NCBI GenBank assembly: GCA_943324575.2
Contig: CALPMD020000018.1
Location: 1 to 10,412 of the forward strand
Source: Akkermansia muciniphila
GTDB taxonomy: Bacteria > Verrucomicrobiota > Verrucomicrobiia > Verrucomicrobiales > Akkermansiaceae
Length of the DNA: 10,412 nt
Direction: 5' to 3'
Positions 1,539 to 10,115 of this stretch are shown in pieces. Every line of letters begins with the position of its first letter. The stretch's first letter is position 1. A program made the translations under genes and the position numbers. Under the pieces are notes generated by a model. That model saw only the letters and a program-made list of their open reading frames with translations. It did no database searches and was not told where the DNA came from.

Positions 1539-2270
1539 TTAGTTGCGATTGTTCGGGCGACGGTCGCCTCCACGATCTCCACCCCGATCACCGCCACGGC
1601 GGTCTGGGCGGTCACCACGGCCTTGTGGCTGTTTGCCAGTGCCGTCGTCTTCCTTCTTGTTGACCCAGCACTTCACGCCAATGATGCCGTAAAGGGTGCG
1701 GGCTTCGGCGAAGCCGTAGTCGAGAGGAACACGCAACGTTTGAAGAGGCACTTTGCCTTCGCGGTAGCCTTCAGCACGGGCGATGTCTGCACCACCGAGG
1801 CGGCCAGCGCAACGGAGACGAATGCCTTCAGCACCGAATTCCATGGCCGTTTGAAGAGCACGCTTCATGGCGCGGCGGAAACTGATACGACGCTCAAGTT
1901 GAACGGCGATCTGTTCTGCGACCAGTTGTGCATCGAGCTCAGGCTTGCGAATTTCGACGATGTCGATTTTCACTTGAGCGCCTTTGCAGAGACCGGTGAG
2001 GTCCTTGGTCATCACTTCGATTTCCTTGCCTTGGCGACCAATGATCAAACCAGGACGGGAAGTGTGAAGTGTCACTCGAACACTGTTCCAGGCACGCTCG
2101 ATGACCACACGGGCCAAACCAGCATTCTGGAGCTTATTCTTGAGATAGCCACGGATCGCGAGATCTTCGTGGAGCTTATCGGTGTAGTCTTTGCCTTTGG
2201 CATACCACTTCGAGCGCCAGTCTTTATTGACGGCGAGACGGAAGGCGATCGGATTTACTTTTTGACCCAT
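1539..2270 (-). CDS. rpsC: 30S ribosomal protein S3 with a Gly-Asp-Arg repeat tail
   Basis: S3 sits at the mRNA entry channel with S4 and S5 and contributes to mRNA unwinding. The 243-residue product begins MGQKVNPIAFRLAVNKDWRS and has a KH type II domain with the GRQG loop at residues 78-81 (RPGLIIGRQGKEIE). The C-terminal S3 domain (about 120-205) ends with YGIIGVKCWVNKKED. After that comes a tail of about 35 residues rich in Gly, Arg and Asp, with GGDR repeats at about 226-237. The core is of normal length; the tail lies beyond the conserved fold. It follows rplV by 33 bp, and no Shine-Dalgarno motif precedes the ATG. Confidence 0.98.
   Translation of the reverse strand: MGQKVNPIAFRLAVNKDWRSKWYAKGKDYTDKLHEDLAIRGYLKNKLQNAGLARVVIERAWNSVRVTLHTSRPGLIIGRQGKEIEVMTKDLTGLCKGAQVKIDIVEIRKPELDAQLVAEQIAVQLERRISFRRAMKRALQTAMEFGAEGIRLRCAGRLGGADIARAEGYREGKVPLQTLRVPLDYGFAEARTLYGIIGVKCWVNKKEDDGTGKQPQGRGDRPDRRGGDRGGDRGGDRRPNNRN
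1560..1598 (-). repeat. Three 12-bp in-frame repeats encoding Gly-Gly-Asp-Arg in rpsC
   Basis: Near the end of rpsC the DNA carries three successive 12-bp units of the form GGN GGN GAY CGN, encoding GGDR GGDR GGDR. The units differ at third codon positions, so the repetition is stronger in the protein than in the DNA. Such units can expand or contract, so tail length may vary between relatives. Confidence 0.75.
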
Positions 2271-2303
2271 GTTCGGTGAGGGATGAGATTAAGAGAGTGG
2301 ATT

Positions 2304-2729
2304 TCAGGCTTGTTCTTCAACCGCTGCAGTAGCGGCTGGAGTTTCTTCGACTTGTGGGGCGGCGGCCTTGCGAGCTGCCTTCTTTTTCTTCTCAGGGGCG
2401 GAGCCGACGAGAGTGATGGAGATGTGACTGGTGCGCTTAAGGATTGGACCCGCAGAACCCTTGGCACGCGGCTTGAAGCGGCGGAGCGTTGGACCTGCGC
2501 CAATGACGGCTTCCTTGATCACGAGCGAACCGGCATCAAGTGAGAAATTGTTTTCTGCATCCGCGATGGCGGTTTTGAGCGTCTTACCAATCAGCTGTGC
2601 GGCTTTCTTGGGAGTGAAGGTCAAAATGTCAAGGGCGCTCGATACGGCGAGACCTTGAATTTCACGGGCGACGTCACGCGCTTTTTTGGGCGAGAGACGA
2701 ACGAATTTTGTGGTGCTTTTGACTTCCAT
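2304..2729 (-). CDS. rplV: 50S ribosomal protein L22 with a Lys/Ala/Glu tail
   Basis: L22 contacts all 23S rRNA domains, and its long beta-hairpin lines the exit tunnel at the constriction. The 141-residue product has the standard L22 fold at residues 1-110: VRLSPKKARDVAREIQG at 10-26 and the tunnel hairpin at about 79-103 (GPTLRRFKPRAKGSAGPILK). Most bacterial L22 proteins end near residue 110. Here about 30 more residues follow, a lysine block (EKKKKAARKAAA) and then an acidic, alanine-rich end. The gene comes 20 bp after the unknown secreted-protein gene rather than directly after rpsS. No Shine-Dalgarno motif precedes the ATG. Confidence 0.98.
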   Translation of the reverse strand: MEVKSTTKFVRLSPKKARDVAREIQGLAVSSALDILTFTPKKAAQLIGKTLKTAIADAENNFSLDAGSLVIKEAVIGAGPTLRRFKPRAKGSAGPILKRTSHISITLVGSAPEKKKKAARKAAAPQVEETPAATAAVEEQA

Positions 2730-2749
2730 GGGTCGTCGGACGTGATTGT

Positions 2750-3475
2750 TTACTGCGCTGAGGCTTGTGTTTCGAGAACGGCGAGATCGCCGAGGCGTGG
2801 AGATTCGGTGACCTTGCCGAGGGATTCGACAAAGGCACCGCTGACGCCCTTGCGGACGTCTGCGAGAATTGCATTACCGTAGGGCTGTTGCCCGCGGGTG
2901 AGTTGAAAGGTCATACCAATTTTAGCACCTTGGCTTTCGCCTAAGTTCAAAACCAACATGCCACTTTCTTGATCGAGACTGACAATCCGTGCCTGCTGCA
3001 ATGAGCCGGAACGAATATCGGGGAGGGGCTTCTGGCGCAGTCCGAGGACAGCGTCAAGCTCTCTTAGTGAAGTTTCCACACGAAGTCTGGCGTCCGGGTC
3101 GGAAACCACCGCGAGGCGGAGGTAATCGTTGACCGCCGCAGCAAGCTTGGTGACCGAACTTTCCAGTTCGGTGGTGCGCTCGCTTGCAAGTTGCAAGTCC
3201 GCAGCAGCCTGGATCAGGCGGTCGTCTCCCCCATCAAGCAGATTCTTGCCGAGTGCTTCGAGGCGTTGGCGAACCTGAGCGAGTTGCTCGGAGGCTTGCT
3301 TCTCGCCGCGATTGGCCTCGATAAGGCTATGCTGGAGGGTTTGATTCTGCCCTTGGAGATCGTTGATGACCTCCTGGAACTCCGCCGCGCTCGGGGCCTG
3401 GCCCATACACACCCCGGCAATGGCCAACGACCCGAAGGAAGCGGCAAGTGCTTTGAGATGATATGAGTAAGCCAT
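2750..3475 (-). CDS. Unknown predicted secreted coiled-coil protein inside the S10 cluster
   Basis: I do not recognise this gene as a ribosomal protein. The 241-residue product starts with a likely signal peptide: a short n-region with Lys8, a hydrophobic stretch at about 9-24, and a possible cleavage after Ala27 (MGQA/PS). Cys23 is not in a good lipobox (AGVC), so a lipoprotein is less likely. Residues about 32-145 are Gln/Glu/Leu-rich with heptad-like spacing, interrupted by a GG turn near 82-83, and suggest a coiled coil. Residues about 156-237 look beta-rich (ARIVSLDQESGMLVLNLGES, then KIGMTFQLTR, later RLGDLAVLE). This loosely resembles small barrel domains such as the FlgT C-terminal or MreC type, which is inference only. 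It lies 27 bp after rpsS and 20 bp before rplV and lacks a Shine-Dalgarno motif. It uses GGG glycine codons several times in its first 80 codons, unlike the GGC-preferring rpsS. It probably acts in the periplasm or envelope and is co-transcribed with ribosomal genes. Confidence 0.88.
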   Translation of the reverse strand: MAYSYHLKALAASFGSLAIAGVCMGQAPSAAEFQEVINDLQGQNQTLQHSLIEANRGEKQASEQLAQVRQRLEALGKNLLDGGDDRLIQAAADLQLASERTTELESSVTKLAAAVNDYLRLAVVSDPDARLRVETSLRELDAVLGLRQKPLPDIRSGSLQQARIVSLDQESGMLVLNLGESQGAKIGMTFQLTRGQQPYGNAILADVRKGVSGAFVESLGKVTESPRLGDLAVLETQASAQ

Positions 3476-3502
3476 GAGCGTGAAGGAGTCGAAAGGAACA
3501 AA

Positions 3503-3775
3503 TTATTTCTTACCGATACCGCCGTGTGTCTTGAACAAACGGGTCGGGGAAAATTCGCCAAGTTTGTGGCCCACCATGTTTTCGGTCACGTAAACGGGAA
3601 CGAAGGTCTTGCCGTTGTGGACGGCGAAGTTATGGCTGACAAAGTCTGGCGTGATCATCGACTTGCGGCTCCATGTTTTGATGGGCTTGCGGTCGGATCC
3701 GGCTTCGGCGACTGCGTCAATCTTAGCAAGGAGCTTTTGATCGACGAACGGGCCTTTCTTGAGAGAGCGTGGCAT
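3503..3775 (-). CDS. rpsS: 30S ribosomal protein S19
   Basis: S19 lies in the 30S head, pairs with S13 and contacts the A-site finger of 23S rRNA. The 90-residue product is close to the usual 92. It has the canonical start [20 protein letters not shown], the central [17 protein letters not shown], and the signature around [20 protein letters not shown] followed by [13 protein letters not shown]. It follows rplB by 31 bp. The next gene is not rplV but the unknown coiled-coil gene, which lies in the same reading frame nine codons after the TAA. No Shine-Dalgarno motif precedes the ATG. Confidence 0.98.
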
Positions 3776-3806
3776 GAGATCGGTTAGTTAGATTGCTAAA
3801 AGTGAA

Positions 3807-4649
3807 TTACTTCTTCTTCTTGTGGCGGGACTCGACAATGAAGACACTGGTGGTCTTGCGCTTGTTGCGAGTCTTCTGACCCTTGGCGTGGCCCCATGGA
3901 CTGGTAAGGTGCTGACGACCACCACCGGACTTCGACTTGCCTTCGCCACCACCGTTCGGGTGGTCAACTGGGTTCATCGTCATACCGCGGACGGTTGGGC
4001 GAACGCCCTGCCAGCGTGTGCGGCCGGCTTTGCCCGAAGTTTCGTTCATGTGGTCACGGTTACCGACTTGGCCGATCGTGCAGAAGCAGCGATCATTGAA
4101 GCGACGGATTTCACCGGAAGGCATTTTCACCAGCGCCCAGCCGCCATCGCGGTTGGAGAGCACAGCGAGCTGGCCAGCAGCACGAGCGACTTTGCCGCCG
4201 TTGCCTGGGATCAGCTCGATGTTGTGAATCGAGGTGCCGAGTGGCACAGCGCTGAGTGGCATCGCGTTGCCCGTTTTCGGAGCGACGTTGGCACCCGCAA
4301 CCACGGTCGTGCCGACTTCGAGGCCGAGCGGAGCGAGGATGTAGGACTTTTGGCCGTCCTCATACTGGATGAGGGCGATGCGGCAAGTGCGGTTTGGATC
4401 GTACTCGATGCCGACAACCGTTGCAGGTGCATCGTGTTTACCACGACGGAAGTCGATCAGGCGATAGTGACGCTTGTGACCACCACCGATGTGACGGCAA
4501 GTGATACGACCAGTGTTGTTACGACCACCACTGCGCTTCAGGGGTGTGAGGAGACTCTTCTCGGGCTTGCTCTTCGTCACTTCCTCGAAAGAAGGAAGAT
4601 TCTTGTAGCGTGCGGATGGAGTGATTGGTTTGAAATTTTTCAGGGGCAT
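3807..4649 (-). CDS. rplB: 50S ribosomal protein L2
   Basis: L2 binds 23S rRNA domain IV and is needed for subunit association and peptidyl transferase assembly. The 280-residue product carries [20 protein letters not shown] at 40-59, the RNA-binding core [21 protein letters not shown] near 110-130, and [20 protein letters not shown] at about 212-231. His230 matches the functionally important E. coli His229 (numbered without Met). The following HPH of E. coli is HPN here (Asn232). The C-terminus is very basic (SRHKKKK). Gaps are 47 bp from rplW and 31 bp to rpsS; no Shine-Dalgarno motif precedes the ATG. Confidence 0.98.
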
Positions 4650-4696
4650 GACTCGCGGAACGGTAATTGTTACGTGTTGAGCAGCGGGTAAATCGC

Positions 4697-4981
4697 TTAG
4701 ACGAGGTCGAGCGATTCGCCTTCTTTCAGACGGACGATGGCTTTTTTCCAGTGGTTTGTGCGACCGGCATCGGCGCGACGTTGGCGGCGGAGTTTTCCGT
4801 CGTAGTTGGCTGTGCGAACGGCCAGAACGGTTTTTCCGAAGAGTTGCTCAACGGCTTGTTTGATTTCAAGCTTGTTGGCCTTGCGGTCCACTTCGAGGGT
4901 GACCTCGTTGTTGGTCTCTTGGAGAAGAGTCGCCTTCTCGCTGAGTCGGACGTTTTTAATGACCTGGTAAATGTCTTTCAT
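4697..4981 (-). CDS. rplW: 50S ribosomal protein L23
   Basis: L23 sits at the tunnel exit and is the docking site for trigger factor and SRP. The product has 94 residues, typical of bacterial L23. It shows the N-terminal [19 protein letters not shown], the conserved [20 protein letters not shown] at about 31-50, and [16 protein letters not shown]. It lies 23 bp after rplD and 47 bp before rplB, the standard order. The start is the first ATG; no Shine-Dalgarno motif is present. Confidence 0.97.
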
Positions 4982-6343: not shown

Positions 6344-6652
6344 TCAGATACGGATGGTGATGTCAACACCTGCGGGGAGGTTGAGCTTCTTCAGCTCATC
6401 CACGGTGCGTGCGGTTGGATCGACGATGTCGAGGAGGCGCTTGTGGGTCCGGATTTCGAACTGCTCCATCGACTTCTTGTTGACGTGAACCGAACGGTTA
6501 ACCGTGAACTTCTCGATGCGAGTTGGAAGTGGAATCGGGCCAGCAACGCGGGCGCCGGTGCGCTTCGCGGTTTCCACGATTTCTTGGGCGGAGCGGTCGA
6601 TCGCGCGGTGATCGAAGGCGCGCAGACGGATGCGAATTTTCTGATTTTCCAT
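6344..6652 (-). CDS. rpsJ: 30S ribosomal protein S10 / NusE
   Basis: S10 is a 30S head protein and, as NusE, binds NusB and NusG in transcription antitermination. The 102-residue product matches the usual length. It has [20 protein letters not shown] near the N-terminus, the extended loop with [17 protein letters not shown] at about 39-55, [20 protein letters not shown], and the typical end [11 protein letters not shown]. It directly follows fusA by 48 bp, with no tuf gene between them. The bases before the ATG include AACCTCCACT, the opposite of a Shine-Dalgarno sequence. Confidence 0.98.
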
Positions 6653-6700
6653 AGTGGAGGTTGTTTGACGGTTTACGTGGTGGGTCTACAGGGCGAGTAA

Positions 6701-8842
6701 TCAGCCTAAGCGGTCGCTTACGATTTCTTCGACGATATTGGTTGGGACTTGCTCGAAATGCGATGGTGTCATCGCATACGAAGCGCGGCCCGAGGATAAA
6801 GTACGAACGGCGGTTGAGTAGCCGAACATTTCTTTGAGAGGGACATTGGCATGCACAATGGAGAGCTTGCCTTTGGACTCGGTGTTTTGGATTTGCCCAC
6901 GGCGGCGGCTTAGATCTCCCATGACATCACCTTGGTAATCGTCAGGAGTGGAAACCTCTACCGCCATGATAGGCTCAAGCAAAATGGATTTGGCTTTTTT
7001 GAAGCCGTCTTTCATGGCGAAGATCGCCGCCATGGTGAACGCGTTTTCGTTCGAGTCGACGTCGTGGTATGAACCATCGAGCACTTCGACATGCACATCG
7101 ATCACGGGATAACCGGCGATGATGCCATTGGTCATCGACTCGTTGATGCCTTTGAAAACCGCGTTGATGTATTCCTTGGGAATCGCACCACCGATGAGTT
7201 TGTTTTCGATCGTTAGACCTTTGCCCTTTTCGTTGGGCTTCACCGACAGCACGACGTGGCCGTATTGGCCGCGACCGCCGGATTGCTTGATCAGCTTGCC
7301 TTCGCCGCCAGCGGCTTGGGTGATCGTTTCGCGGTAGGCGATTTGTGGAGCGCCGGTGTTGGCTTCCACTTTGAACTCGCGGCGAATGCGATCGATGATG
7401 ATCTCCAGGTGAAGTTCACCCATGCCGGAAATGATCGTTTGACCGGTTTCCTCGTCGGTCTTGACCATGAAGGTCGGGTCCTCTTCGGACAAGCGGCCGA
7501 GGGCGAGACCGAGTTTCTCTTGGTCTGCTTTCGTCCGTGGCTCAACCGCCATCGAGATGACGGGTTCCGGGAAAGTTGGGGGTTCGAGAACCACGTCGTG
7601 ATTGTCGGCGGCGAGCGTGTCGCCGGTGGTCACGTTTTTGATACCAACCATGGCAGCAATGTCACCCGAGTAACACGCGTCGATGTCCTTATGCTCGTTC
7701 GCTTGGATTTGAATCAAACGACCGACGCGCTCGGAGCGGCGGGTGCGGGGGTTGTAAACCGTGTCGCCCTTACGGATGACGCCGGAGTAAACGCGGAAGA
7801 AAACGAGTTTGCCAACGAACTTGTCGGCCCACAGCTTGAATGCGAGCGAGACGAACTTTTCGTTGTCGGAAGTGACGACCTCAATGCGGGTCTCTTCGTT
7901 GTCGGGGTCCATGCCGATCGCCGCTGGGATGTCGAGCGGGCTTGGCAGGTAATCAATCACTGCGTCGAGCAGGTATTGGACACCCTTATTTTTGAAGGCC
8001 GATCCACCTGCCACTGGCACCAATAGGTTCGCAATGGTCGCGCGGCGGATGCCTTGTTTCAACTCTTCGAGAGTGATTGACTCTTCGTTGAGGAATTTTT
8101 CGCCCACGGCTTCATCGACATCAGCAACCGCGTTGACGAGTTCGTCGTGGGCCTGTTGGCAGAGAGCGATGAGGTCGCCTTCAAGTTCTCTCACCGTGTA
8201 GGTCGAGCCGTACTTGTCGTCGTCGTTGAAGTAAACCGCCTTTTGGTTGACCACGTCGATCTGGCCGACGAGCTGATCTTCCGCGCCGATCGGGATCAAG
8301 ATCCGCACGGCGTTAGCACCGAGCTTCTCTTTGACCTCTTCGAAAACACTCTGGAAGTTGGCACCCGTGCGGTCCATCTTATTGACGAACACGATCCGCG
8401 GAACGTGGTACTTCGTCGCTTGGCGCCAGACGGTTTCGGTTTGCGGCTGGACGCCGGCAACACCGCAGAAAACGACAATCGCACCATCGAGAACCCGCAG
8501 CGAACGCTCAACTTCAGCAGTGAAGTCGACGTGGCCAGGAGTATCGATGATGTTGATGCGATTCTTCTGATTCGGGAAGAGCTTGGTCATCCCCTCTTCC
8601 GCGTGCTGCCACCATTCGGTGGTCACGGCGGCGGAAGTAATCGTGATTCCGCGCTCGCGCTCTTGCTCCATCCAGTCGGTCGTCGCGCCACCATCGTGGA
8701 CTTCGCCGATTTTGTGAATCATCCCTGTGTAAAACAGGATCCGCTCGGTGAGCGTCGTCTTACCCGCGTCAATGTGCGCAGCGATCCCGATATTTCGGGT
8801 GCGCTCGAGCACGTATTGGCGGTTAGGACTGTTAGGATTCAC
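6701..8842 (-). CDS. fusA: Translation elongation factor G (GTP start codon GTG)
   Basis: EF-G is the cytosolic GTPase that drives translocation of tRNA and mRNA and, with RRF, splits post-termination ribosomes. The 713-residue product has the P-loop AHIDAGKT at 22-29, switch I RERGITI at 62-68, DTPGHVDF at 100-107 with the conserved His104, and NKMD at 154-157. The long C-terminal part spans domains II to V, including GRGQYGHVVLSVKP (domain IV) and YSTAVRTLSSGRASYAM near the end. The stretch between TTEWW and RINIID is about six residues longer than in E. coli. The start codon is GTG (8840-8842), chosen because it gives the usual short lead before ERTRNIGI. No Shine-Dalgarno motif is visible. 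It lies 30 bp after rpsG. Confidence 0.98.
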   Translation of the reverse strand: MNPNSPNRQYVLERTRNIGIAAHIDAGKTTLTERILFYTGMIHKIGEVHDGGATTDWMEQERERGITITSAAVTTEWWQHAEEGMTKLFPNQKNRINIIDTPGHVDFTAEVERSLRVLDGAIVVFCGVAGVQPQTETVWRQATKYHVPRIVFVNKMDRTGANFQSVFEEVKEKLGANAVRILIPIGAEDQLVGQIDVVNQKAVYFNDDDKYGSTYTVRELEGDLIALCQQAHDELVNAVADVDEAVGEKFLNEESITLEELKQGIRRATIANLLVPVAGGSAFKNKGVQYLLDAVIDYLPSPLDIPAAIGMDPDNEETRIEVVTSDNEKFVSLAFKLWADKFVGKLVFFRVYSGVIRKGDTVYNPRTRRSERVGRLIQIQANEHKDIDACYSGDIAAMVGIKNVTTGDTLAADNHDVVLEPPTFPEPVISMAVEPRTKADQEKLGLALGRLSEEDPTFMVKTDEETGQTIISGMGELHLEIIIDRIRREFKVEANTGAPQIAYRETITQAAGGEGKLIKQSGGRGQYGHVVLSVKPNEKGKGLTIENKLIGGAIPKEYINAVFKGINESMTNGIIAGYPVIDVHVEVLDGSYHDVDSNENAFTMAAIFAMKDGFKKAKSILLEPIMAVEVSTPDDYQGDVMGDLSRRRGQIQNTESKGKLSIVHANVPLKEMFGYSTAVRTLSSGRASYAMTPSHFEQVPTNIVEEIVSDRLG

Positions 8843-10040: not shown

Positions 10041-10115
10041 TGGTGGCTGCGGGTGGGTTCGAACCACCGACCAAGGGCTTATGAGTCCCCTACTCTACCG
10101 CTGAGCTACGCAGCC
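10041..10115 (-). tRNA. tRNA-Met (CAT anticodon), probably elongator
   Basis: A full cloverleaf is seen on the minus strand. The acceptor stem GGCTGCG/CGCAGCC is followed by A73 and an encoded CCA. The D arm is GCTC/GAGT, the anticodon loop CTCATAA with CAT at 10081-10083, and the T arm GGTGG-TTCGAAC-CCACC. The first pair is G-C and the anticodon stem lacks the three G-C pairs of initiator tRNA, so it is not fMet. The acceptor GGCTxCG matches E. coli elongator tRNA-Met. A tRNA-Ile2, in which TilS converts C34 to lysidine, shares the CAT loop and cannot be fully excluded. The last anticodon-stem pair is an A31/G39 mismatch. It is 60 bp upstream of the rpsL -35 box with no clear terminator between. 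Confidence 0.95.

Follow-up and report, generated by a model that had tools for sequence, protein, structure and literature searches.

What is the role of a gene that lies between two ribosomal-protein genes and whose product is predicted to be exported? The question is raised by a stretch of 10,412 nucleotides of Akkermansia muciniphila DNA, referred to here as the window, which is a whole contig (CALPMD020000018.1, C18 in our numbering) of an incomplete genome (1.49 Mb in 253 contigs, 70% complete). The S10 cluster is one of the most conserved gene orders in bacteria, and in E. coli K-12 the gap between its genes rpsS and rplV is 14 bp. A first reading made from the sequence alone (the sequence-only reading) had placed between them, in the window, a complete gene of 241 codons on the same strand, with spacers of 27 and 20 bp. 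The open reading frame (ORF) coordinates and the Pfam families of both flanks confirmed this arrangement. The gene, named X in this study, belongs to an old and maintained family that is set in or beside the ribosomal-protein operon, and it is not a stray insert. The features of the locus are as follows:

2750..3475, minus strand: gene X, 241 codons with an ATG start, encoding a predicted exported coiled-coil/beta-barrel protein
3503..3775, minus strand: rpsS (S19), the upstream neighbour (PF00203, E 3.1e-36)
2304..2729, minus strand: rplV (L22), the downstream neighbour (PF00237, E 1.3e-34), with which X keeps in most split operons
3476..3502, minus strand: rpsS-X spacer, 27 bp
2730..2749, minus strand: X-rplV spacer, 20 bp

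Homologues of X were found in 56 of the 59 genomes of a genus and order sample that included the own genome. We found the homologue in 33 of the 36 other genomes of the genus (the three without it being G002, G020 and G027) and in all 22 genomes from other families of the order. Of the distinct loci in which both flanks were available, all 60 had X in the rpsS-rplV interval, a figure that informs on place and not on frequency, given that these loci were chosen by their match to X. They remained from 68 loci after removal of one in which the ribosomal genes were absent (L002), one whose contig begins after rpsS (L053) and, from the other 66, six repeats on the same contig. The named relatives among the matches listed were Akkermansiaceae and Luteolibacter and, farther away, Phragmitibacter, Prosthecobacter and Roseimicrobium. 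Names among the matches listed (the best 120 of 992, of 933 and of 214) were those of Verrucomicrobiota or were missing, with the exception of P0202, a metagenome protein labelled Pseudomonadota. Some record titles seem misplaced within the X family, such as 'Akkermansia muciniphila' for L034 and 'Prosthecobacter debontii' for L042.

The ratio of nonsynonymous to synonymous substitution rates (dN/dS, Nei-Gojobori), a calculation proposed in the sequence-only reading, ranged from 0.16 to 0.28 for X compared with 11 loci of the same genus. For rplV, rpsS, rpsC and rplB it was 0.008-0.12, with two exceptions: an rpsS pair that differed little gave 0.21, and an rplV pair showed no changes at all. 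X is under purifying selection. It could be argued that X is carried along neutrally, or that the assembly is wrong at this point, its constraint being weaker and its glycine codons less biased than those of the ribosomal genes. However, its dN/dS is far below 1 and open frames of similar length occupy the same place in many genomes; these data bear out the earlier claim of a maintained gene rather than debris, and the passenger or error reading, to which we give practically no credence, is refuted.

The rpsS-rplV gap was then surveyed, as had also been proposed, within the phylum (Verrucomicrobiota, a name taken from the named records). The sample of 106 genomes was uneven, with 12 of them from a single genus (g18). 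S19 was located in 102 genomes and L22 in 103, G116, G331 and G342 having no rplV match. Among the 104 genomes with either gene, the two were near each other in 66 and were apart, or one was missing, in 38. The gap of the near pairs was shorter than 110 bp in 14 genomes, of 110-300 bp in 18 and of at least 300 bp in 34. Reading of the loci, together with the positions of profile matches, placed X directly upstream of rplV in 54 of the 103 genomes with rplV and in 17 of 29 families, with the following distribution (genomes with X before rplV/genomes with rplV):

Families with X before rplV: f1 13/13, f4 1/1, f13 3/3, f14 1/1, f17 2/9, f25 1/1, f39 1/1, f64 9/18, f66 1/1, f68 2/2, f69 6/9, f73 3/3, f74 3/3, f76 1/1, f78 4/4, f80 2/2, f82 1/1
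Families without X before rplV: f12 0/4, f19 0/2, f65 0/4, f67 0/3, f70 0/3, f71 0/6, f72 0/3, and f75, f77, f79, f81 and f83 0/1 each

Absence of X in the remaining 49 genomes was established by reading the locus in 30 and from the gap alone (151 bp or less) in 19. Since X is present in 17 of the 29 sampled families, the later arrival once suggested for it is unsupported and fits poorly; its placement before rplV probably took place early in the phylum. Paralogues inflate the match tallies of 181/236 (class) and 194/387 (phylum), which we therefore did not take as a measure of presence, and weak matches were seen elsewhere in genomes without X at rplV (f12, f17, f67, f70 and others). In f19, X was absent from two 0.9-Mb genomes and present in a larger genome beyond the sample (G151, L128). 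At L119 and L139, X preceded rplV and there was no rpsS match in the stretch.

The position of X was further defined by split operons. In five families (f64, f69, f74, f80 and f82) rpsS and rplV are on separate contigs or on opposite strands of one, and X was directly upstream of rplV in 21 of their 33 genomes with rplV. Both sides were checked in G290, G305, G311, G321 and G341, where no rplV followed rpsS in the stretch and no rpsS preceded X-rplV; in f82 the reading covered the X side. Families f70 and f75 are also split, and X was not found before rplV there. Comparison of X with the X of split operons by hhalign matched 219 columns, helices included, with a probability of 98.8. At L161 and L163 (f64), two ORFs, which we take to resemble tatA and tatC, lie directly upstream of X, and X is followed by rplV. 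The observed splits fall between rpsS and X, so that X can be used to trace how the operon evolved within the phylum.

One genus of f64 (g155) departs from this arrangement. None of its nine genomes with rplV has X before that gene, and a homologue was found outside the operon in nine of ten sampled genomes (E 1e-25 to 1e-46; G331, without an rplV match, is counted here and not among the 103), with none at E <= 1e-3 in G347. In four of the nine, an AcrB-type RND pump gene of the same orientation lies upstream of the homologue, 0, 3 or 14 bp away or overlapping it, one of these pump genes having been called by Pfam and the remaining three by BLAST to that one; no AcrB-type pump gene was found upstream of the other five. 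AAA protease ORFs, presumably FtsH-like, were observed near the homologue at four of the nine loci (L225-L233). We infer that the homologue is an orthologue of X that has been relocated. Therefore, the job of X would not be bound to its place in the operon. It appears that X is retained on its own account; that it acts solely in cis at rplV is improbable.

In this regard, the secretion-monitoring leaders, such as SecM and VemP, must be considered. A leader that controls rplV in cis would agree with a predicted exported product encoded directly before rplV, in many lineages despite the operon split. Nevertheless, the homologue is away from rplV in g155 (9/10 genomes), rplV is found without X in many lineages, and the most conserved part of X is a folded domain. 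In addition, the C-terminal tails of X vary in length and sequence between families, yet in an alignment of 97 sequences the variability of the tail (1.81 bits) did not exceed that of the helices. We consider such a leader very improbable.

The protein itself reads, from models and alignments, as a predicted signal peptide or N-terminal anchor followed by long helices and a FlgT-C-like barrel, with these parts in the window:

3395..3475, minus strand: predicted signal peptide region, residues 1-27, with a hydrophobic core and a small-residue end (hydropathy scan and alignment)
3047..3388, minus strand: helical, coiled-coil-like region, residues 30-143 (AlphaFold helices 30-79, 85-121 and 127-143)
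2768..3001, minus strand: predicted C-terminal beta-barrel, residues 159-236, of FlgT-C-like fold, the most conserved part

A signal peptide, a coiled coil and a beta-rich C-terminus had all been claimed from the sequence. The AlphaFold model upheld the helices and the C-terminal beta domain, a barrel, while export stays a prediction from hydropathy. The signal peptide and coiled-coil calls were made from hydropathy, heptad periodicity and the AlphaFold model. The heptad-like periodicity of residues 30-115 was matched in strength by 10 of 2000 shuffles. A hydrophobic stretch was present in 133/137 cases and a positive n-region and an [AVSG]xA motif in 115/137 each, the same hydropathy being reached by rplC and rplD. 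Some X lack the long helical part; when X was compared with short X, which share a Lys-Thr end, the barrel alone was matched (profile probability 98.1). X gave nothing above cut-off against Pfam, NCBIfam or in a sequence-only PDB search. Additionally, further proteins that combine helices with this barrel were observed elsewhere in several genomes (L100-L105, L115 and L118, by profile comparison for the first six), and the five of them that were scanned had no Pfam family above cut-off.

Structure comparison matched the barrel of X to the fold of the C-terminal domain of FlgT, a flagellar H-ring protein. The sequence scores are below the Pfam cut-off of FlgT_C (PF16538, 27 bits): X itself had no match at E <= 1, and four of five relatives scanned scored 14.4-16.7 bits, the fifth giving none. 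X has its coiled coil where FlgT presumably has its other domains. Many homologues among the matches listed carry the JGI name FliL, which was rejected, no FliL family being among the Pfam or NCBIfam matches of X at E <= 1. The FlgT fold, together with a weak profile match to TsaP (E 0.22) and a secretin in all 54 genomes with X at rplV, would suit a component of the flagellum or of a machine linked to a secretin, like FlgT and TsaP. Secretins are, however, found in 102 of the 106 genomes, the four without them being one family that has no X (f12), and the association (Fisher p 0.048) has little power and is not evidence by itself, as the test treats genomes as independent when they are not. 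Of the 54 genomes that have X at rplV, just 4 gave a FlgI match and 50 gave none, compared with 6 matches in the 49 without X there and 11 in the 106 overall; the 70% complete genome of the window gave no FlgI match either. A flagellar role fits poorly, and we regard this whole group of roles as decidedly improbable.

The overall layout of X (membrane anchor, coiled coil and beta domain) is also that of MreC, and a related role as a scaffold of wall synthesis would agree with weak resemblances in structure (Foldseek matches to 2j5u, E 3.7e-3, and 9a5z_B, E 6.7e-3) and in profile (MreC 9dvb, E 0.45). PF04085, the MreC family, was not among the Pfam matches of X at E <= 1, and MreC is matched separately, by G000:C12, in the genome of the window. 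This family was matched in 94 of the 106 genomes; the 12 without it are all of genus g18 (G060-G148), in the family of the window, and all 12 have X. Conversely, each of the 49 genomes without X at rplV has a PF04085 match. Therefore, X neither needs nor replaces MreC; an MreC-dependent role fits poorly, and the scaffold is quite unlikely.

A periplasmic chaperone or holdase of the Skp kind, whose synthesis alongside the ribosomes would keep it in step with the amount of protein exported, was considered in view of the helices joined to a beta body, the predicted export and the location among translation genes. We judge it unlikely. The OmpH/Skp family was absent from the Pfam matches of X at E <= 1, conservation is highest in the barrel and not in the helices, and the long helical part is missing in some X. 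Moreover, the sole other match of X in the own genome, a weak one (E 0.12, L002), appears to be an OmpH/Skp-like gene in its own right, next to an lpxD-like ORF, both names being our assumption.

In our preferred reading, to which we give moderate confidence, X is a periplasmic coiled-coil adaptor of old origin that bears a FlgT-C-like head and whose gene usually lies among those of ribosomal proteins. X would be exported by means of its signal peptide; in some lineages an N-terminal membrane segment would hold it instead. The long helices would probably build an oligomeric coiled-coil stalk in the periplasm, presenting the conserved barrel for binding to a partner in envelope assembly. With the gene placed before rplV early in the phylum, its mRNA would be made along with those of ribosomal proteins in most lineages that have X, and the supply of this envelope part would track growth. 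Because the spacers are short, rpsS, X and rplV are probably co-transcribed, and expression of X may thus be coupled to growth rate, as the sequence-only reading had proposed. It must be noted, as a point against this coupling, that the homologue of g155 lies outside the operon and the link with ribosomal genes is therefore not obligatory.

Codon use is consistent with lower expression or translation of X than of its neighbours. GGG accounts for 5 of its 20 glycine codons, compared with 0/8 in rpsS and 4/60 in fusA; the window's ribosomal-protein genes, 13 of them without rpsL, have 0/170. The sequence-only reading was right that the glycine codons of X are less biased than those of rpsS; of the causes it offered, lower expression fits and later arrival does not. 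A scan of 2200-4700 gave no sigma-70-like site, against 0.6 expected, and two terminator-like sites, both on the plus strand, against 3.7 expected; as shuffles give hardly more, neither result is informative.

More tentatively, and as a possibility short of what we would call probable, X could be a dedicated envelope protein of the phylum whose dose is set by ribosome synthesis, carried on the rplV mRNA since early in the phylum, pacing envelope assembly with translation and required by some members, if not all, in order to grow. X is in any case a concrete handle on a possible tie of envelope growth to ribosome production, being a lineage-wide predicted exported protein inside the S10 cluster with no Pfam or NCBIfam family above cut-off. 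Ribosomal-protein operons are known to include non-ribosomal genes, the spc operon with secY and adk being an example; X is likewise a non-ribosomal gene in a ribosomal cluster, but differs in its operon place and in being a predicted exported helix-plus-barrel protein. The PVC signature protein CT421.2 is small (about 53 to more than 80 amino acids) and, like X, lineage-wide, and the parts of its description consulted contain no tie to rpsS or rplV (PMC3444138). A literature search by titles and abstract openings found no description of X. For Verrucomicrobium spinosum, an essential-genome paper that, in the portions available, does not name X reports both a transposon map and targeted mutagenesis (PMC12283558); therefore, the question is testable now.

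Some traits of the neighbouring genes were also observed. The rpsC gene (1539-2270) has a C-terminal tail rich in Arg, Gly and Asp past the usual domain, and rplV (2304-2729) closes with an Ala/Glu-rich tail, also past the usual domain. At 6344-8842, an ORF that we take to be rpsJ directly follows a presumed fusA, with no tuf between them, so that the str and S10 clusters are joined. The sole Rfam match above gathering score in the window was a tRNA at 10044-10115.
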